A stretch of 64,000 bases of DNA from Phreatobacter stygius (GTDB lineage Bacteria; Pseudomonadota; Alphaproteobacteria; Rhizobiales; Phreatobacteraceae). Below are positions 3,119 through 12,628 of this stretch, in pieces (positions within the stretch are counted from its first letter, which is position 1; every line of letters starts with the position of its first letter). A program made the position numbers and the translations under genes. The stretch lies in assembly GCF_005144885.1 (NCBI RefSeq), contig NZ_CP039690.1:5407001-5471000 (forward strand), written 5' to 3'. The notes below the pieces were generated by a model. It did no database searches. It was given only the letters and a program-made list of their open reading frames with translations, and was not told the DNA's origin.

Positions 3119-3838
3119 CTACCGCCGGAACCGGAGATCCGACCCTTGCGCGATCCAGCCGGCCTCGATCGCGTCCATGTCGGCATTGCCTGACGGATTG
3201 GCCTTGGTCGGCGACCAGCCCTGCCGGGCCGGCCAGGTGCTGCGCCAGAGCGCGACGAGCCGTTGAAGTTCGCCGAGCGGGTCGGCGTGATCGTCGACGC
3301 GAATGTTCAGATCGGGGAAATCTTCCGTCGTGACGAGCTGCATCGCCGCCGATTGCCGGCCGCGCCGGTCGCCGCCGGCGGCTTCGCCCGCCAGGAGCGC
3401 CACCATCATCCGTTCCGGCAGGGCGAGCGAAACGCCCGCGGCGAAAGTTTCGAAGGTGCGGCCGACGACATTGCCGCCCGCCAGCATATTGCCGGCAACC
3501 GAGACATGGGCGCCGGTTCGTTCGCCCGACCATTCCACGCAGTTGCGTCCGGTCCAGGCGGCGCTGCGACCCCTCGCGTCCACCGCGTGGACCTGGCGCA
3601 AGCCGCGTCCGTCGTCCCGCGCGAGCGCCGCCTCGATCGCCTCGGCCGGCGCCAGGCCGGCAGCCAGGCCGTCGAGCACGGCCGGACCGAGATAGCGGTT
3701 GGTCATCGATTGCGTCGCGACCGCGCCGACACCGGCCCGCACGAACGGGCAGCTTGCCCCGACCGCGAAGGAGCAGGTCGTCACGGCGACGGCAAAGGCG
3801 CCGCTCGCCGGATCATGGGCGACGATCGACCAGGTCAT
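3119..3838 (-). CDS. DUF1028 family protein (Ntn-hydrolase-like fold)
   Basis: The protein opens with MTWSIVAHDPASGAFAVAV and continues with VGAVATQSMTN, the conserved N-terminal pattern of DUF1028. This family is thought to have an N-terminal-nucleophile hydrolase-like fold and is often encoded beside peptide-type ABC transporters. The Met at 3838 is chosen over an in-frame upstream start because it begins exactly at the conserved core and leaves a 17-base gap to the preceding gene. It follows the family-5 binding protein on the same strand and is probably co-transcribed. A second DUF1028 paralogue lies at 18042-18695, also ending an ABC operon. Confidence 0.85.
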   Translation of the reverse strand: MTWSIVAHDPASGAFAVAVTTCSFAVGASCPFVRAGVGAVATQSMTNRYLGPAVLDGLAAGLAPAEAIEAALARDDGRGLRQVHAVDARGRSAAWTGRNCVEWSGERTGAHVSVAGNMLAGGNVVGRTFETFAAGVSLALPERMMVALLAGEAAGGDRRGRQSAAMQLVTTEDFPDLNIRVDDHADPLGELQRLVALWRSTWPARQGWSPTKANPSGNADMDAIEAGWIAQGSDLRFRR

Positions 3839-3855
3839 GTCCAAACCTCGCGGCG

Positions 3856-5478
3856 CTACTTCTTCTCGATGTTCCACAAGGCGAGATTGCCTGCCGGGAA
3901 GACGCCGGTGATGTTGCGGCGGAAGGCCGAGGGCTGGAGATATTGGCCGAGCTGGATATGGGTCGGATAGACGGCCTCGCGCCGCTGCGCCGCCTCGGCC
4001 AGCGCCTTCCGCGCTTCCGGGTCGGTTTCGCGTGCGAAGGCGTCGCGCAGGCGCTCCAGCTCGGCATCGCAGGGCCAGCCGAACGTCGCCCGCTCGCAGC
4101 TTGCATTGAGGAAGGCGGTGGAGACCGGATCGAGCACGTCGATCGAACCCCAGGAGGTCAGGAAAGCGCTCCAGCCGCCAGCGGCCAGCGGCTCCCGCTT
4201 GACCCGGCGCGAGACCAGCGTCTGCCAGTCCATCGCCTGCATGTCGACCCTGAAGCCGGCCCGCTCCATCAGGGCCTTGGCGACGGGCGCGAGATTGGCG
4301 AGCGAGGCGACGTCGGTCGACTGCATCAGGACGACAGGCGTGCCGTCATAGCCGGCCTCCTGCAGCAGCGCCCGGGCCCTGGCGAAATTGCTCTCCAGCT
4401 TGTCCTCGAAACCGGCCGTCGTCTCATAGGGCGAACCGCAGGGGTAGAGCGACAGGCAGGTGCGGAAGAAGCGGGGATCGCCAATGGTCGCCTGCAGGAA
4501 ATCCTGCTGGTTGAACGCATAGGCCACCGCCTGGCGGATGCGCGGGTCGTCGAAGGGCTTGTGCAGCACGTTGAAGCGGAAGGCATATTGCCGGCCCATT
4601 GGGGCGAGCACCGCCATCGCGATGTTGGGGTCCTTCTCGATCAGCGGCAAGAGGTCGTGCGGCGGCGCCTCGACCATGTCGATCTCGCCCTGCAGCAGGG
4701 CGTTCACCTGGGTCTGGGCGTCGGGCAGCCAGATCCACTCGACGCGATCGACGTGCACCACCTTAGCGCCGGCCATGCCTGACGGTGGCTCGGCCCTGGG
4801 CCGGTAGCGCGGGTTGCGGACATAGACCGCCCGCTCGCCCGGCCTCCAGGCGTCGCGCACGAAGATGAACGGGCCGGACCCGGTGCTGTCAGAGATCTGC
4901 GTGTTGGGGTCGGTTTCGGCGACCCGTTTCGGCATGATGAACAGCACGTTGGACGAGGGCTTGCCGAGCGTCGACAGCACCAGGCCATAGGGTTCCTTCA
5001 GGCGCAGGATGAAGGTCCTGGCATCGACCGCGCGAAGCTCTGATGTCACGGCCATGAGCTTCTGCGCCAGACCGTCGCGGGCGCCCCAGCGGCGGATCGA
5101 GGCGACGCAGTCCTCGGCCGTGACCGGCTGGCCGTCATGCCATTCCAACCCGTCGCGCAAGGTGAAGGTGAAGGTCAGCTTGTCGTCGCTGACGGTCCAG
5201 CGCTCGACCATCTGGGGCTGCACGGCAAGCTTTTCGTCGACCGCGAACAGCGTGTCGTAGATCATGAAGCCATGGTGGGTGGTGATCAGCGCGGTGGTCC
5301 AGACCGGATCGATGATCTTCAGGTCGGAATGCAGCGCCACCCGCAATATCGTTTCCGCCGCGGCGCTGCGCGGCGTCGCGCCGGGCAGCGCGCCCGTCAG
5401 GGCGGTGATGAAAGTCGCGGCCGCGACCGCTCGAAAAAGACCGCGGACCGCTCGTGCCCCCCAGCCGACGATGTTCAT
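3856..5478 (-). CDS. ABC transporter substrate-binding protein, family 5 (peptide/nickel type)
   Basis: This 540-residue protein has an N-terminal signal peptide with cleavage near the AAAE at about residue 41, followed by the family-5 solute-binding pattern (LHSDLKIIDPVWTT, DGLEWHDGQPVTAEDCVASIRRW, QAVAYAFNQQDFLQ). Members bind oligopeptides, nickel chelates or glutathione in the periplasm; the ligand here cannot be deduced. No permease or ATPase genes adjoin it: downstream is only the DUF1028 gene, and 160 bp upstream is an insertion sequence. It is therefore an orphan binding protein in this window, perhaps working with permeases elsewhere. Confidence 0.9.
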   Translation of the reverse strand: MNIVGWGARAVRGLFRAVAAATFITALTGALPGATPRSAAAETILRVALHSDLKIIDPVWTTALITTHHGFMIYDTLFAVDEKLAVQPQMVERWTVSDDKLTFTFTLRDGLEWHDGQPVTAEDCVASIRRWGARDGLAQKLMAVTSELRAVDARTFILRLKEPYGLVLSTLGKPSSNVLFIMPKRVAETDPNTQISDSTGSGPFIFVRDAWRPGERAVYVRNPRYRPRAEPPSGMAGAKVVHVDRVEWIWLPDAQTQVNALLQGEIDMVEAPPHDLLPLIEKDPNIAMAVLAPMGRQYAFRFNVLHKPFDDPRIRQAVAYAFNQQDFLQATIGDPRFFRTCLSLYPCGSPYETTAGFEDKLESNFARARALLQEAGYDGTPVVLMQSTDVASLANLAPVAKALMERAGFRVDMQAMDWQTLVSRRVKREPLAAGGWSAFLTSWGSIDVLDPVSTAFLNASCERATFGWPCDAELERLRDAFARETDPEARKALAEAAQRREAVYPTHIQLGQYLQPSAFRRNITGVFPAGNLALWNIEKK

Positions 5479-5639: not shown

Positions 5640-7060
5640 CTACTAGATTCACACATCTTTTGCCTGGGCGAGAGCGTCCCATCCCTGCTTGGCATCGTAG
5701 AAGGATAGCCAGCCCTGTAGCATGACCATCGGGCCAGGCTTGCCGTAATATCCGGTCCAGCCACCGAGCCTTGCGCAAACCCAGGCGGCAAAGGCGAGCG
5801 AGCCCTTGGGGTGTGGATTCTTCTGCCGCTGGGTCTTGCCCTCCAGCTTGGCCGAGAGCGCCTCGAGCAAGGGCTGATCTTCCGGCTGGAAGGCATCGGT
5901 GAGCGGCCTGAGCGGGGTCTGAGGCGATGCGCCGTCACGAGCATGGACGAGTTGCTGGACGCTGACCGCGGCCACCAGCGCTGCCATGACCAGCTTGAGA
6001 CGGGGCACATCCTCGGCGATGCGCAGGCCTTCGATGTCGTAGCCCTGGGTCTTCAGGGTGCGGAACAACTGCTCGATGGCCCAACGACGCCGGTAGAGCT
6101 CGGCCACCGCCAGGGCTTCGGTGATGTCGCGGACCGCGCGCGAGATCAAGAGCCGCCAGTGAACCGCCGGCTCGCCCGCCGGTGGATCGACTTCGCGGAT
6201 ATCGACCAGCGTCATGCCGACGCTCGCCGGCAGGGCCTCAAGTCCTGGTGTGCCGGCCTTGGGACGTGCCAATTGCGCCGCCATGAAGCGGACCGCCAGT
6301 CGCGCCTGGCGCGCCTTGCGGCCGGGCTTGGCCGGCAGGTCCAGCAGGGTCCGGCCGGCCTCAGGCAAGGCATCCACGGTGGCAAACAGCAGACCGCCAT
6401 CGCCGAGGCTGCGATCTTGGGCCGCCCTGACCAGAAGCTCGATGTCCTTCGGGCGTCGTGCAAAGGCCTCGAAGATATCGCCCTCGCGATCGGCGATCAC
6501 CGTCACGCTACGAGCCAGCGCCCCGATCCTGGCCGCGTCTTCGCCCCCTTCCAGCCAGCGCCGGCTCTCTTTCGCCGCCAATGGGCGGGATTTCCGCTCC
6601 CCACGCAAGCCTTTGTCGCGGCTCATGAATTGAGCATGCGCCAACCCCAGGATGGCGCCGTCCTCGGCATCCACCGCGATCATCGCATGCAACATAAGCC
6701 CACCGCCGCCGCTCGACTTGATGCTGGTGGTGTCCTGGATCGCCAGCACCGGCCGGCCGATACACCGTTCCGCCGTGCGCTCTTGCGCCGTCGCCGCCAT
6801 CTCTTCGACCGTCACCGCCGGATTGCGCAGCAAACGGGTCAGGCGCATCTCGCCTCGCCGGTTGCCGCCCAGCGGCCGAATCCGAATCCCACGACCACCC
6901 CACTCGACCAGCCGGCGGTGCAAAAAGACCCCCCTTTTTCCAGCCGGCGGTCGCCAAACCGCCCCAGCCCATGCTCCTGCATCTGCTTCCTCCCGCTATC
7001 TGCGGATCAAGGAATCAGAGCCGCATCCTCCTCGCAACCCACGATGTGTGAATGTCGTAG
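5640..7060 (-). mobile_element. IS4-family (IS50/Tn5-like group) insertion sequence, 1421 bp
   Basis: The ends are imperfect inverted repeats, 16 of 18 matching: CTACTAGATTCACACATC at 5640-5657 and, read inward from 7060, CTACGACATTCACACATC. The 9-base sequence CCCGTCGGG directly flanks both ends (5631-5639 and 7061-7069), the target-duplication length known for IS4/IS50-type elements. Joining the flanks and removing one copy restores CCCTCTCCCGTCGGGAGAGGG, an almost perfect palindrome, so the element jumped into an intergenic palindromic repeat. It carries one transposase gene, whose stop codon lies inside the left inverted repeat. Confidence 0.88.
5649..6982 (-). CDS. IS4-family DDE transposase, reading frame split by a -1 shift
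   Basis: The main frame encodes the transposase catalytic core: AIQDTTS (first Asp), VIADREGDIFE (second Asp) and YRRRWAIEQLFRTLK (Glu), the DDE and YREK-like signature of the Tn5/IS50 group. That frame lacks a convincing ATG. An ATG at 6982, preceded by GGGAGGA at good spacing, starts MQEHGLGRFGDRRLEKGG, which looks like the family N terminus, but its frame runs into a stop after about 45 codons. Joining the two needs a -1 shift at A5G6 (6939-6929 on this strand). This could be programmed slippage, an inactivating mutation or a homopolymer sequencing error. Confidence 0.8.
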
Positions 7061-7098: not shown

Positions 7099-8433
7099 TC
7101 AGCCGGGGCCGGCACCTTGGGTGTTCACATAGACCGCATAGATCGACTGGCTCGCGGCCATGAACAGCCGGTTCCGTTTCGGCCCGCCGAAACAGACATT
7201 GCCGCAGATCTCCGGCAGGCGGATGCGGCCGATCAGCTTGCCCTCGGGGTTCCACACGGTGACACCACTATAGCCGACCGACCGGCCGGCATTGCTGGAG
7301 GCCCAGAGATTGCCGTCGACGTCGCAGCGCAGCCCGTCCGGCCCGCATTTCACCCGGTCCACCATGCAGTCGGTGAACTGCTTGCCGTTCGACAGCTTGT
7401 TGTCGGCGCCGACATCAAAGACATGGATGTCGCCCTTGCCGCCGGGGCCCTGGTCGCCGGGACCCTTGCCGGTCGAGGCGACATAGAGCTTCTTGAAGTC
7501 GGGCGAGAAGCAAAGCCCGTTCGGGTCGGGCACTTGGCTTTCGGTGACGACCAGGTCGATCCGGCCGCTCGGATCGATGCGGTAACAATTGGTCGGCAAT
7601 TCGCGCCGCCATTCGCCGATGCCGGCCGGCTGGCCGAGCTTCGGGTTGAGCCGGCGATTGGCATTGCTCGGACCGCCCGGAGCATCCGGCGCGCCCTCGT
7701 AGAGCTGGCCGCCATAAGGCGGATCGGTGAACCAATAGCTGCCGTCGGGATGGGCGACGACGTCGTTGGGCGAATTCAGCCGCTTGCCGTCGAAGGCTGC
7801 GGCCAGCACGGTGACCGAGCCGTCGAGCTCGTAGCGCACGACGCGGCGCATCAGATGTTCGCAGGACAGCTGGCGGCCCTGGAAATCGAAGGAATTGCCG
7901 TTCGAATTGTTCGAAGGCTGGCGCATCACGCTGACATGGCCGTCGTCTTCGAGCCAGCGCAGTTGCCGGTTGTTCGGAATGTCGCTCCAGACCAGATAGC
8001 GGCCTTGCGCATTCCAGGCCGGACCCTCGGCCCAGAGCGCGCCGGTCCACAGCCGCTGGATGGCGCTGTTCGGCTGGGCGTAGCCGTCGAATACCGGGTC
8101 GACCGAGAGAATGTCCGGATCGGTGAAATAGGTGGTCGGCGCGCCGCCGGGGCTGAAATCGCGCGGTGGCGTGGTGATGGTGCTGGGCGGCGCCACCGGG
8201 GCCGGAGCCTGGGCAAAGGCCGGTCCGGCGCCAAGGGCGACCGCGCCGAGACCGGCGACCGCGCCGAGACCGGCGACCGCGCCGAGACCGGCGACCGCGC
8301 CGAGACCGGCGACCGCGCCGAGACCGGCGACCGCGCGGAGCAGGGCGCGCCGCGAGGCGGCCGGGGCATCCGGTTCCTGGGCCGAACCGGGCAGGCGCGG
8401 CGTTTCCTGGAGGCTGGTTCGTTCTGCAATCAT
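7099..8433 (-). CDS. SMP-30/gluconolactonase/LRE-like family protein with Tat signal
   Basis: The protein is about 444 residues and belongs to the six-bladed beta-propeller lactonases of the gluconolactonase/SMP-30 type: WAEGPAWNAQGRYLVWSD, NSPNDVVAHPDGSYWFTDP and VPDPNGLCFSPDFKKLYV are family hallmarks with the metal-binding Glu, Asn and Asp. A twin-arginine motif SRRALLR at about residues 27-33 precedes an unusually repetitive hydrophobic stretch (AVAGLG repeated five times) and an AFA cleavage site, indicating Tat export to the periplasm. The Met at 8433 (MIAERTSLQE) is chosen because the longer frame upstream has no family features. The substrate is unknown; it probably hydrolyses a sugar-acid or other lactone. 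Confidence 0.85.
   Translation of the reverse strand: MIAERTSLQETPRLPGSAQEPDAPAASRRALLRAVAGLGAVAGLGAVAGLGAVAGLGAVAGLGAVALGAGPAFAQAPAPVAPPSTITTPPRDFSPGGAPTTYFTDPDILSVDPVFDGYAQPNSAIQRLWTGALWAEGPAWNAQGRYLVWSDIPNNRQLRWLEDDGHVSVMRQPSNNSNGNSFDFQGRQLSCEHLMRRVVRYELDGSVTVLAAAFDGKRLNSPNDVVAHPDGSYWFTDPPYGGQLYEGAPDAPGGPSNANRRLNPKLGQPAGIGEWRRELPTNCYRIDPSGRIDLVVTESQVPDPNGLCFSPDFKKLYVASTGKGPGDQGPGGKGDIHVFDVGADNKLSNGKQFTDCMVDRVKCGPDGLRCDVDGNLWASSNAGRSVGYSGVTVWNPEGKLIGRIRLPEICGNVCFGGPKRNRLFMAASQSIYAVYVNTQGAGPG
8237..8337. repeat. 18-bp tandem repeat, five full copies, within the Tat signal
   Basis: The unit GCGACCGCGCCGAGACCG is repeated perfectly five times from 8237 to 8326, followed by a partial sixth copy. 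On the coding strand it encodes AVAGLG per unit, extending the hydrophobic core of the gluconolactonase-like protein's signal peptide in steps of six residues without changing the frame. Perfect identity between copies suggests recent expansion by slippage. Confidence 0.95.
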
Positions 8434-8688
8434 GGTCAGCACCCTTCTGATGGAGCCCTTGGATCGGGCCAGTGGTGGAGAGCCGGTGAATGACGTCGAA
8501 CAGAGCTTGCTGGGTCGTCCCGCCATCGCGGCATCCTCATCAGGGATGGCGGGTGCCGCCGGAGGGCGACGGGGGACCCTACGCCCGAGCGCGCGAGCTG
8601 GCAGCCCCGGATTCGCATCGCAGGGACGCGACGGCGCGCTCGGCCCCCTGCACGTCCGGTCGCTGGCGTCGACCGCGACGCCGCCGGA

Positions 8689-9108: not shown

Positions 9109-10359
9109 TCAGTGCCGCTGGCCGCTGCCGCCGACCGCCAGAATGTCGATCGGTTCGCCGTCGAAAGCGATCCGCCGTTTCTCCGCCAGTGTCTCGGCGT
9201 CGAGCACGACAACCATCCGCGCGGCCGGATCGGAGATCGCGAGATAAGGCCCGGAGGCCGTCAGGCGTGGCCGGGGCGATGATCCATCAAGGGCGACGCG
9301 CCCGAGCACGGCACGTTCGTGCGTGGTCGCGCCGGTCAGCGGATTGATGGTGAGCACACGGCCGTCCTCGATGAGCACGAACAGCCGGTCGCCGGTTGCC
9401 GGATGCAGTGCGAAATGCACACGCCGGCCGGGCAGCTGGATGAAGCGCATGTCGCCATCGGCCTTGGTCGGGTCGATGACGACAAGGCCATCGGCGCCGA
9501 AATCGCCGGCGAAGAAGGCAAAACCGGCGGCACCCGAGAGGCTGCGCACCATGCGGCCGGCCGGCAGCGCGGACCCATAGGCGATGTGGCGGGCGGCGGG
9601 CGTGCCGCGGCCCACTTCGTAAAGCGCGATGCCGTCGGCGCAGCCAAAGCCGGTGAAGCGCACGGTGGTGGCCTCGCCATGCAGGCGCGGGCAGGCGATG
9701 CGCTGCGAAGCCCGGCCTTGCCTGTCGCGCAGCTCCACCGCCACCGGCAAGGTCTCGCCGGCCGAGGCGACCGAGACCGCGATGAACCGGCCGACCGGCT
9801 TGGCGACGCCGTGATGGGCAAGGCCGGTTTCGATGCGCCGGAGGCTGGCCATGCGGCCGCTGACGAGATCGGCCTCGGCGATCACCTGGGCGCTGCCACT
9901 GCCGTCGAAGAAGGCGGCGACCTGCGTGCTGTCGGCATTGAAGTGCGCGGGCTTCGGGCCGTCGAGACGGGCGGCAAGCAGCCGCGGCGGCGTGATGGCG
10001 ATATCGGCGTGGTCGCCGTGATCGTCGAGCGTGATGCCGCTGTCGATGACCGCAATGCGTGCGGCTTCGGCCTGCAGCGCATGGACATAACGGCCGGAAG
10101 CGCCGCGTGCGAGCCGCGCCGGGCTGGCCAGGCGGAAGGTCGAAAGCAGCCGGCCGGTATCGAGATCGGTGACCCACAACCGGCCCTGGCCACCGTCCGA
10201 GGCCAGCAGGCGATGGGCGGTGACACGGCTGCCTTGCCCTGCCGCGCCGGTGCTTTCGGCCTGGGCCGTGGCCATCGCGCACGCGAGCGCCAGAACCGCG
10301 CCCACAGCCTGCCGGCGCGCCGAAATCCTCCCGCCATCCCGGTTCTGAAATCTCTGCAT
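9109..10359 (-). CDS. AztD-like periplasmic zinc metallochaperone (beta-propeller)
   Basis: The 416-residue protein has a signal peptide (about residues 11-34, cleaved near AQA) followed by propeller-like repeats such as GRLWVTDLDTGRLLSTF and GASGRYVHALQ. The cluster DDHGDHADI (residues 112-120) and IETGLAHHGVAKP resemble my memory of AztD, a periplasmic zinc chaperone that hands zinc to an ABC binding protein. The Met at 10359 is chosen because the longer frame runs into the divergent gene. It faces a TonB receptor gene across a Zur-like palindrome, which supports a zinc role. No aztABC transporter genes are in the window. The alternative is another YVTN/WD40-like propeller protein. Confidence 0.7.
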   Translation of the reverse strand: MQRFQNRDGGRISARRQAVGAVLALACAMATAQAESTGAAGQGSRVTAHRLLASDGGQGRLWVTDLDTGRLLSTFRLASPARLARGASGRYVHALQAEAARIAVIDSGITLDDHGDHADIAITPPRLLAARLDGPKPAHFNADSTQVAAFFDGSGSAQVIAEADLVSGRMASLRRIETGLAHHGVAKPVGRFIAVSVASAGETLPVAVELRDRQGRASQRIACPRLHGEATTVRFTGFGCADGIALYEVGRGTPAARHIAYGSALPAGRMVRSLSGAAGFAFFAGDFGADGLVVIDPTKADGDMRFIQLPGRRVHFALHPATGDRLFVLIEDGRVLTINPLTGATTHERAVLGRVALDGSSPRPRLTASGPYLAISDPAARMVVVLDAETLAEKRRIAFDGEPIDILAVGGSGQRH

Positions 10360-10398
10360 GGCCTCGATTGACTCCCTGAAATCGGCTCGATATGCAAC

Positions 10399-10411
10399 GT
10401 TATAGTATAAC
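10399..10411. promoter_or_regulatory. Zur-like zinc-uptake operator
   Basis: GTTATA-G-TATAAC is a perfect 13-bp palindrome in the 73-bp gap between the divergent AztD-like and TonB-receptor genes. It matches the core of the known proteobacterial Zur consensus (TGTTATA-N-TATAACA). Its position, 22 bases before the receptor start and 40 before the AztD-like start, fits repression of both promoters when zinc is sufficient. Confidence 0.75.
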
Positions 10412-10432
10412 ATAAATTGAAGAGAAAGACCG

Positions 10433-12628
10433 ATGCCGGATGTCTCGTCCACCTCGCCGCTGCCGCGGCTTGCCGGCGGCTTCTGCCTGGCCGCCGGGCT
10501 GTTCATGACGGCGCCCGCGGCGGGGCAGGGTGCGGAAACACAACTCGACACCATCGTGGTCGAATCCGAGCGGACCGGCCGCCCGTCGCGCGACAGCGTT
10601 CGCTCGCCGACCGATCTGACCGCGCCCAACACGACGGGCTCGCGGCTGCCGGGCACCGCCCGCGACATTCCGGCCAGCGTCGAGGCGGTGAACCAGGCGA
10701 CCATGCAGGAGCGCGGCAACCGCAACTGGGTGGAGGCGCTGCAGGGCCTGACCGGCTTCACCGCCGCGATCCGGCCGGGCGCTGCCGGCATCATGTCGGC
10801 GCGCGGCTTCACCGAAAATGGGTTCGCCCTGCTCTATGACGGCATCCGGGTGTCGTCGACCACGATCAGCGCGCGCAATTACGACAGCTTCGTCTTCGAC
10901 CGTATCGAGGTGCTGCGCGGACCGGCTTCCGTGCTCTACGGCGAGGGGGCTGTGGGCGGCGCGATCAACCTGGTGCGCAAGCAGCCCTCGGCCGTCGACC
11001 AGCCGTTCGAGGCGATCACCTCGGTCAGCACGCCCGGCGGGGTCCGCCTCGGCCTCGGCAAGGGCGGCGTCATCGGCGAGAGCTTTGCCTACCGCGTCGA
11101 CGGAGTCGTCACCCGTGACCTCGGCCAGGTCGACGACAACAGGATCCGCCAGGGCCAGATCAATGGCGCGCTGCGCTGGCAGGTCAACGAGCGTTTCGCC
11201 GCGACCATCGATTTCGATTACCTGCGCTCGAGCATCGACAATGCCTATTGGGGCACGCCGCTGGTGCGCGGCGCGATCGCCCCGGCGCTGCGGCGGGTCA
11301 ATTACAACACGATCGCCAACAACCGTTACGACGATAGCGTGCTGTGGCTGCGCGCCCGGTTCGACTACGAGACCGACGATGGCTGGCGCCTGAGCCATCA
11401 GGTCTGGAACCACCAGGCCAATCGCGACTGGATCAACGCCTATCGTTTCGCCGCCATCCCGGCCGGCGGCACCTGCCGGTTTCGCGGCCAGTCGCTGGTC
11501 AATGGGACCGGCACCGACCAGGTCTGCCGCATGACCTGGGAGAATCTCGGTTACGACCACCGCTTCACCGGCAACCGGGCCGAGGCCGCCTATCGCGGCC
11601 GCATCTCCGGCCTGGAGGTTGCCGCGACCTTCGGCGTCGAGCTCGCCCAGACGCGCTGGACCAGCCCGCGCAGCGAGGTGACCTCGCTGCAACTGGTCGA
11701 CCCCTTCAATCCGCCGGCGACCGATTTCTTTTCGCGCGGCACTGCGCGCAACCAGACGGTACGGGCAAACCTGACCCAGGGCGCGGTGTTCGGCGAGGGG
11801 CGGGTGGAGGTGCTGCCCGGTGTCAAGCTGGTCGCCGGTTTCCGCAGCGACTGGCTGGCCGTCGATTATGACCGCCAGCCGGCCAACCAGACCTATTCGC
11901 GCAACTACCAGCCCTTCACCTATCGCGTCGGCGCGGTCTGGGATGTCTGGTCGCAAGCTTCGCTCTACGCGTCCTTCGCGACGGCGGTGGAACCGCGCTT
12001 CGCTTTGTTCACGCTCGGCGCGACCGACACGCCGTTCAGCCTGACCGAGGCGCGGCAAATCGAGATCGGCTTCAAGCAGGGCTTTTGGAATGGCCGGGGC
12101 GAGGTGACCGCCGCGCTCTACCGGATCGAGAAGACCAATGTGCCCTCCACCGATCCGCTGACTGGCAATACCGTGCAGGTCGGCCGGCAATCGTCGCAAG
12201 GGTTCGAGATCGGCGGCAGCTATCGTCCGGTCGACGAGATCAGGCTGACGGCCAATCTCGCCATGGTCGAGGCGCGCTATGACGAGTTCCGCTCCGGCAG
12301 CGCCGATTTCGCCGGCAACCGTCCGCCCAACGTGCCGCGCTGGGTGGCCAATCTCGGCGCGGTCTGGAGCCCGGATCCGAAATGGTCGCTCGGCGGCAGC
12401 CTGAGCTACCGCTCCTCGATCGCCGCCGACGACGCCAATACGGTGAAGCTGCCGGCTGCGCTGATCGCCGATGTCTTCGCAACCTACCGCGTGTCAGCCT
12501 CGGCCGACGTGACGCTGCGCGTCCACAATCTCACCGACGCGGTTTATGCCGCCTGGGCGACCGATGCGAATTACGTGATCCTGGGGCGGCCAAGGACCTT
12601 CGAGCTGGGCGTGCGGGCAAGGTTTTGA
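10433..12628 (+). CDS. TonB-dependent outer-membrane receptor, probably zinc-related
   Basis: The 731-residue protein has a signal peptide, a TonB-box-like DTIVVE after cleavage, a plug domain (RDIPASVEAVNQATMQER, FDRIEVLRGPASVLYGEG, GGAINLVRK) and a long beta-barrel ending in FELGVRARF with the terminal Phe expected for outer-membrane insertion. The architecture is that of siderophore-type TonB receptors. The Zur-like site directly upstream and the divergent AztD-like gene suggest it imports zinc or a zinc complex rather than ferric siderophore; this is inference. AGAGAAAG precedes the ATG as a ribosome site. Confidence 0.92.
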   Translation: MPDVSSTSPLPRLAGGFCLAAGLFMTAPAAGQGAETQLDTIVVESERTGRPSRDSVRSPTDLTAPNTTGSRLPGTARDIPASVEAVNQATMQERGNRNWVEALQGLTGFTAAIRPGAAGIMSARGFTENGFALLYDGIRVSSTTISARNYDSFVFDRIEVLRGPASVLYGEGAVGGAINLVRKQPSAVDQPFEAITSVSTPGGVRLGLGKGGVIGESFAYRVDGVVTRDLGQVDDNRIRQGQINGALRWQVNERFAATIDFDYLRSSIDNAYWGTPLVRGAIAPALRRVNYNTIANNRYDDSVLWLRARFDYETDDGWRLSHQVWNHQANRDWINAYRFAAIPAGGTCRFRGQSLVNGTGTDQVCRMTWENLGYDHRFTGNRAEAAYRGRISGLEVAATFGVELAQTRWTSPRSEVTSLQLVDPFNPPATDFFSRGTARNQTVRANLTQGAVFGEGRVEVLPGVKLVAGFRSDWLAVDYDRQPANQTYSRNYQPFTYRVGAVWDVWSQASLYASFATAVEPRFALFTLGATDTPFSLTEARQIEIGFKQGFWNGRGEVTAALYRIEKTNVPSTDPLTGNTVQVGRQSSQGFEIGGSYRPVDEIRLTANLAMVEARYDEFRSGSADFAGNRPPNVPRWVANLGAVWSPDPKWSLGGSLSYRSSIAADDANTVKLPAALIADVFATYRVSASADVTLRVHNLTDAVYAAWATDANYVILGRPRTFELGVRARF

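Follow-up and report, generated by a model that had tools for sequence, protein, structure and literature searches.

An AztD-like chaperone gene paired with a TonB-dependent receptor gene across a predicted Zur-type operator in Phreatobacter stygius

In the genome of Phreatobacter stygius, the gene for an AztD-like zinc chaperone lies back to back with the gene for a TonB-dependent outer-membrane receptor, and a palindrome resembling an operator of the repressor Zur occupies the space between them. The stretch analysed, hereafter the window, comprises 64,000 nucleotides of contig NZ_CP039690.1 (positions 5,407,001 to 5,471,000), and coordinates given without a further label refer to it. The pairing of an AztD-like chaperone with a TonB receptor, which recurs in another genus, suggests that the two proteins cooperate in bringing scarce zinc into the cell. 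At the level of sequence, the evidence consists of the operator, the zinc ligands typical of AztD, a pairing that is conserved and the presence of aztABC-like genes elsewhere in the genome. Taken together, we consider it somewhat probable that the locus is a Zur-repressed zinc module in which the receptor imports a zinc chelate, AztD holds the metal and an unlinked AztABC transporter takes it up.

Results

The locus consists of the following features.
9109..10359, minus strand: AztD-like gene, 416 amino acids (aa), with homology to solved AztD chains.
10397..10413, no strand assigned: predicted Zur-type operator between the two divergent genes, with its dyad core at 10399-10411.
10433..12628, plus strand: gene for a TonB-dependent receptor of 731 aa that has a Plug domain and a beta-barrel; among solved chains it is closest to 9rvq (CrtA).

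The original prediction, made from the bare letters, placed the palindrome GTTATA-G-TATAAC between both genes, and it is indeed present at 10399-10411 as a perfect 13-bp dyad. The surrounding operator, 10397-10413, reads ACGTTATAGTATAACAT and differs by one mismatch from the 17-mer ATGTTATANTATAACAT, a Zur consensus. With up to three mismatches allowed, this 17-mer has one match in the 64-kb window and none in 100 dinucleotide shuffles, and the 13-mer GTTATANTATAAC, with up to two mismatches, likewise has a single match in the window where 0.02 would be expected. A chance match is ruled out by the shuffles together with the boxes kept at the orthologous genes of another genus, described below. 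The inverted repeat is of the kind found at the promoters of zinc-uptake genes, and 10397-10413 is described here as a Zur-type operator, to which Zur would bind. It lies 37 bp from the ATG of the AztD-like gene on the minus strand and 19 bp from that of the receptor gene on the plus strand, and by eye its core holds -10-like hexamers in both directions; a consensus scan of 10300-10500 returned no full promoter. At znuK, znuL and znuGHI of Caulobacter, the operator of Zur is described as overlapping the -10 region, and the window operator resembles the Zur sites reported there from electrophoretic mobility shift assays (PMC4176598). The G+C content around the locus is 63-71% in 1-kb steps, with no clear compositional break.

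Is the propeller protein an AztD? It begins with a signal-peptide-like N-terminus (by eye) and is a beta-propeller by full-length homology to solved AztD chains. A search of solved chains returned 6cmk, which is named AztD, at 244 bits and 6ck1 at 178 bits, followed by a third and last match that was not significant. The second chain is taken to be the AztD of Paracoccus denitrificans because its residue numbering matches the structure paper (PMC6689063). In the comparison with AztD by profile or structure that the original prediction proposed, the solved AztD chains are the best relatives, whereas the AztD model NF038015, the only NCBIfam match, scored 224.7 bits, below its curated cut-off of 400. 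The protein is therefore named AztD-like throughout. A Pfam search returned nothing significant.

The ligands argue for the AztD-like identity that the original prediction proposed. According to the structure paper, site 1 is formed by His124, His167 and His218, site 2 by His99, His102, Asp104 and the C-terminal His408, and a conserved disulfide by Cys214/Cys231 (PMC6689063). By alignment, all seven zinc ligands and both cysteines are found in the window protein, as H139, H183 and H227 in site 1, H114, H117, D119 and the C-terminal H416 in site 2, the transfer site, and C223/C240. The alignment has 31 rows (29 AztDs and two pieces of one split gene), and among the rows with a letter every ligand or cysteine column is invariant, including those of site 1 (30 of 30), except Asp104 (29 of 30); eight rows stop before the C-terminal histidine.

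The receptor is of the TonB-dependent siderophore type, scoring 231.8 bits against TIGR01783 (cut-off 223.5), with Plug (PF07715) and barrel (PF00593) domains and, by eye, a TonB-box-like DTIVVE. Only four of its 731 residues are histidines, and H376 alone among them is kept in all seven orthologues compared. The scarcity of histidines and a conserved C348/C365 pair favour a chelate over naked zinc as the substrate; accordingly, the metal would be imported as a chelate and not as the free ion. The closest solved chain, over the full length, is 9rvq at 318 bits, followed by CntO at 112 bits. The former is CrtA (BfrG), the copper-chelate transporter of Bordetella pertussis, whose site is given as Y130, W265, E337, Q356, H358 and R395, with the change of H358 alone abolishing function (PMC12914433). 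In an alignment read by hand, the window receptor keeps W265 alone of the six, and H358 aligns with Y374, which rules out membership of CrtA. Receptor H376 stands two residues beyond this position and perhaps lies on the same strand face. The context appears to differ as well, being Zur-type and not copper. CrtA is marked by copper control (CruR) and a PepSY_TM neighbour, PepSY being reported in over 75% of loci (PMC12914433), and the six flanking window proteins scanned gave no PepSY match in Pfam. Like ZnuD, the receptor is of the TonB type with a probable link to zinc, yet it scored just 24 bits against the ZnuD model NF038289 and is not a ZnuD.

The pairing recurs outside the family of the window organism, which bears out the original prediction's coupling of AztD to an outer-membrane receptor. 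In an even draw of 249 genomes from the order, AztD matches were present in 25, the window's genome included, five of these matches being short with E above 1e-6. A search for receptor orthologues at E up to 1e-150, in which two candidates were scored in each genome, returned 3 of 397 genomes, namely the window's and two of a genus in another family, here labelled g35. AztD occurs in 8 of 117 g35 genomes, all eight of which also encode an AztC-like protein. In five of them (G267, G344, G304, G301 and G171), AztD adjoins a receptor 63-64% identical to the window's. These genes are convergent, with 3' ends 56-152 bp apart, whereas the window pair is divergent, and each gene has its own Zur-type box (5/5 AztD genes; 6/6 receptor genes, counting the receptor of G194). 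For each of these 11 genes, no more than 0.2% of 500 single-base shuffles attained the score of the 17-mer ATGTTATANTATAACAT; an 18-mer read off the g35 loci was also scored, which is circular because it derives from those same loci. The G171 aztD spans two frames, and the aligned G301 row lacks the expected C-terminal end. The window AztD is 49-54% identical to the receptor-paired g35 AztDs (48% for one piece) and 31-41% identical to the other AztDs compared. In a tree, the receptor-paired AztDs cluster (support 89/90; five rows, the two G171 pieces left out), and a long-branched AztD from G231 joins them at 100/99.

Other g35 loci (in G194, G344, G333 and G285) carry aztC and zur beside aztD, with a second receptor nearby that is 32% identical to the window receptor (G344, G285). 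A Zur-type box precedes this second receptor at all three of the four loci scanned. For the second receptor in L099, the closest solved chain is again CrtA (228 bits), and both E337 and H358 are retained in the alignment. In g35, AztD is thus repeatedly accompanied by Zur-boxed receptors from the CrtA-like branch. The second receptors near aztC-aztD-zur are found in L099 (8384-16999), L100, L101 and L059; the aztD of the G344 aztC-aztD-zur locus looks cut short.

Beyond g35, AztD is seldom seen beside such a receptor. A profile built from four receptors found one in 9/9 g35 AztD loci and in 0/29 other genome loci, some of which are short (L056, L064); since the L063 and L078 AztDs are identical, these are counts of loci and not of species. 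A partial ZnuD-like match at the contig end of L056 (64 bits, tblastn) was not reported by the profile, and a three-receptor profile scored the left-out ZnuD-like receptor at only 37.6 bits (E 4.6e-14), so distant receptors can be missed in this way. The profile found no receptor in six plasmid AztD loci (132 plasmid records had an AztD match), a receptor search of plasmids at E up to 1e-100 returned no record, and the 12 AztD loci of a named-genome scan (35-39% identity) were without a receptor by profile. Three plasmid AztDs (L165, L167 and L170; Skermanella, Neorhizobium and Shinella) have no annotated aztABC within 10 kb in an incomplete gene table, and detachment of AztD alone therefore looks ordinary. 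According to the AztD structure paper, close to half of all AztDs have a ZnuA-family gene nearby, and a Bosea-dominated cluster is described with CobW as its sole obvious link to zinc (PMC6689063).

If AztD and the receptor act together, which transporter receives the zinc? The original prediction described the unit as lacking AztABC, which is true of the flanking window genes scanned. It does not extend to the organism: the genome (7.35 Mb, one contig), with one AztD and two ZnuA-family binding proteins, has an aztABC-like operon at 1.82 Mb (L021), 3.6 Mb from the window aztD and thus unlinked to it. The binding protein of this operon has as its closest solved chain 5w56 (268 bits), which is Paracoccus denitrificans AztC (PMC6689063); it scored 298.5 bits against the AztC model, below the cut-off of 350, and 81.5 against the ZnuA model, whose cut-off is 268. 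Its partners exceed their cut-offs, AztA with 227.5 bits (220) and AztB with 283.4 (280), and a COG0523 GTPase gene adjoins them. The suggestion of an unlinked ATP-binding cassette (ABC) importer as the likely recipient is thereby supported, the operon being AztABC-like and having a Zur-type box upstream.

A genome scan for aztABC and further Zur boxes, which the original prediction had also proposed, thus found the operon and boxes at zinc genes, but no overall enrichment of the 13-mer. Four genome sites come within one mismatch of the 13-mer, and all are at zinc genes. The first is the operator of the window pair; the second precedes the aztABC operon, at 30 bp from a small open reading frame (ORF) upstream of aztA; the third falls within the 3' end of aztB, ahead of aztC; and for the fourth, the 17-mer begins 31 bp upstream of a ZigA-like gene (589 bits, cut-off 600). 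The small ORF (75 aa; L021 14417-14644, minus strand, near 1.822 Mb) encodes a His-rich N-terminus and one probable membrane helix and has no Pfam match; it would open the aztABC operon.

The surroundings of two of the nine sites with exactly two mismatches were inspected. One, at 6297622, lies inside an ORF of L023. The other, at 1365883, precedes the gene for a ZnuD-like receptor (L027 2933-5035, plus strand, near 1.366 Mb), where the Zur-type box starts 54 bp before the probable ATG; this protein, at 253.9 bits against a cut-off of 950, is a candidate second zinc receptor. A looser palindrome has 11 genome sites, three of them the zinc sites already known, and the one inspected of the remaining eight is inside an L021 ORF. 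A Zur candidate is encoded at 2.148 Mb (L026), scoring 33.7 bits against PF01475 (cut-off 23.1) and 116.3 against NF008646, below the cut-off of 167. No box was found in the upstream stretches taken for zur, for aztC (one guess at the start) and for aztA (two guesses), the aztABC box being located further upstream, before the small ORF.

Within the genus of the window organism, an AztC-like protein is present in all 12 genomes searched, and AztD in the window genome alone. The relative with the most similar AztC (G391, 85%) keeps the genes flanking the pair region in order. None of the called window ORFs of 9.1-17.1 kb, among them both genes of the pair, has a match in the stretch fetched from it, where the corresponding interval measures 1.7 kb; window 5.6-8.5 kb is also without a match in this syntenic locus. 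Gain of the pair in the window lineage and its loss in the others would both fit this comparison. Further features lie nearby. A transposase (DDE_Tnp_1) gene is found at 5649-6923 (minus strand), within the stretch missing from G391. An SMP-30-like protein (ORF 7099-8526) has repeated AVAGLG units in its N-terminal part, encoded by a short tandem repeat at about 8230-8300 (minus strand). A DUF1028 gene (3119-5478, minus strand) adjoins a gene for a family-5 solute-binding protein, and the two occur together in G391 and G065.

Discussion

We hypothesize that zinc-loaded Zur represses both genes of the window pair from the one shared operator and that, when zinc is scarce, Zur would leave this operator and both genes would be transcribed. 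The receptor, with energy from TonB, would then carry a zinc chelate across the outer membrane. AztD would capture zinc in the periplasm and pass it to the AztC-like protein of the unlinked, Zur-boxed operon at 1.82 Mb, which would import it, and the Zur-boxed ZigA-like GTPase may handle zinc inside the cell. The hand-off from AztD to AztC has been described for the published system (PMC6689063, PMC7731109), and we infer the same for the window organism. Moreover, Paracoccus denitrificans AztD is reported not to load ZnuA (PMC6689063), which makes the AztABC-like system the better candidate for the recipient.

Several observations weigh against this module. The 13-mer with up to two mismatches is not enriched genome-wide (13 sites, compared with 58 for the reversed pattern used as control), and the case for Zur therefore rests on the location of the best sites and their conservation in relatives. 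No box was found within the 110 bp upstream of the zur candidate. Transfer from AztD is described as needing a loop of AztC (PMC7731109); this loop is His-rich in the window genome and equally so in genus relatives without AztD, so that no co-adaptation is seen and a specific matching of the two proteins is unsupported. AztD is absent from 11 of the 12 genus genomes, in G194 the receptor and its box persist although no AztD adjoins them, and the window receptor's nearest solved relative transports a copper chelate.

The last point bears on what the receptor carries. It could import the chelate of another metal (cobalt, copper or nickel) that substitutes for zinc or spares it, and could for that reason be under Zur control, AztD being merely co-regulated. 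The kinship with CrtA is in keeping with this, as is the Zur-controlled receptor system PA2911-PA2914, which has been assigned to pyochelin-cobalt and indicates that a Zur-controlled receptor need not carry zinc (PMC11481552). However, the receptor adjoins a zinc chaperone in two families and two arrangements, and H358 and four more of the six CrtA site residues are not kept. For these reasons we regard another metal as an unlikely cargo.

A second question is whether the chaperone hands its zinc on at all. Its distance from aztABC, and the 11 genus genomes that have the same AztC and no AztD, would suit a periplasmic zinc store or buffer without transfer to AztC, and Paracoccus denitrificans AztD has been described as zinc-reservoir-like (PMC7731109). 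All the transfer ligands of site 2 are nevertheless kept in the window protein, the C-terminal histidine included, and a pure store appears improbable.

That the two genes are independent members of a Zur regulon, neighbours by chance that travelled together without a joint pathway, would agree with the separate boxes of the g35 genes, with the solitary receptor of G194 and with the rarity of receptors beside AztD outside g35 and on plasmids, yet we give it little credence, as the pairing survives a change of orientation across five g35 genomes and the window, and a second receptor, 32% identical, lies near the aztC-aztD-zur clusters of g35.

How does the proposed Zur-repressed zinc module compare with known systems? 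With the AztABCD importer as described (PMC6689063, PMC7731109), it shares the propeller family, the two zinc sites, the disulfide cysteines, the Zur context and relatives of AztA, AztB and AztC in the genome; it differs in that the window aztD has a TonB receptor gene as its partner and lies far from aztABC. Caulobacter crescentus znuK/znuGHI likewise has a Zur-controlled TonB receptor and a Zur site in common with a zinc-uptake operon, but the neighbour is an ABC-2 transporter and not an AztD chaperone, and both Zur-controlled receptors, ZnuK and ZnuL, are reported as needed for zinc-starved growth (PMC4176598).

A search of open-licence PMC texts gave no paper describing AztD paired with a TonB receptor. 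In Escherichia coli, the TonB receptor gene yncD is near yncE, a gene for a periplasmic beta-propeller; this pair is not known to be related to zinc, and the literature search found no paper devoted to it.

Little is known of how zinc travels between receptors of the outer membrane and the binding proteins of the periplasm. AztD has been described as a partner of AztC, and a conserved pair of AztD and receptor would place it at the point of entry. As a more speculative extension, which we think somewhat unlikely as a whole, the receptor-paired AztDs may form a distinct branch that docks to the receptor and takes zinc as the chelate enters, in a relay from receptor to AztD to AztC; the receptors may be zinc-specific offshoots of the CrtA-like branch, and the two genes may move between genera as a module, so that a resident AztABC without AztD gains both a chaperone and a channel for entry. 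The pair offers a small two-gene system for testing the hand-off from outer membrane to chaperone, and it suggests that zinc regulons make use of some receptors close to CrtA, the newly described copper transporter.

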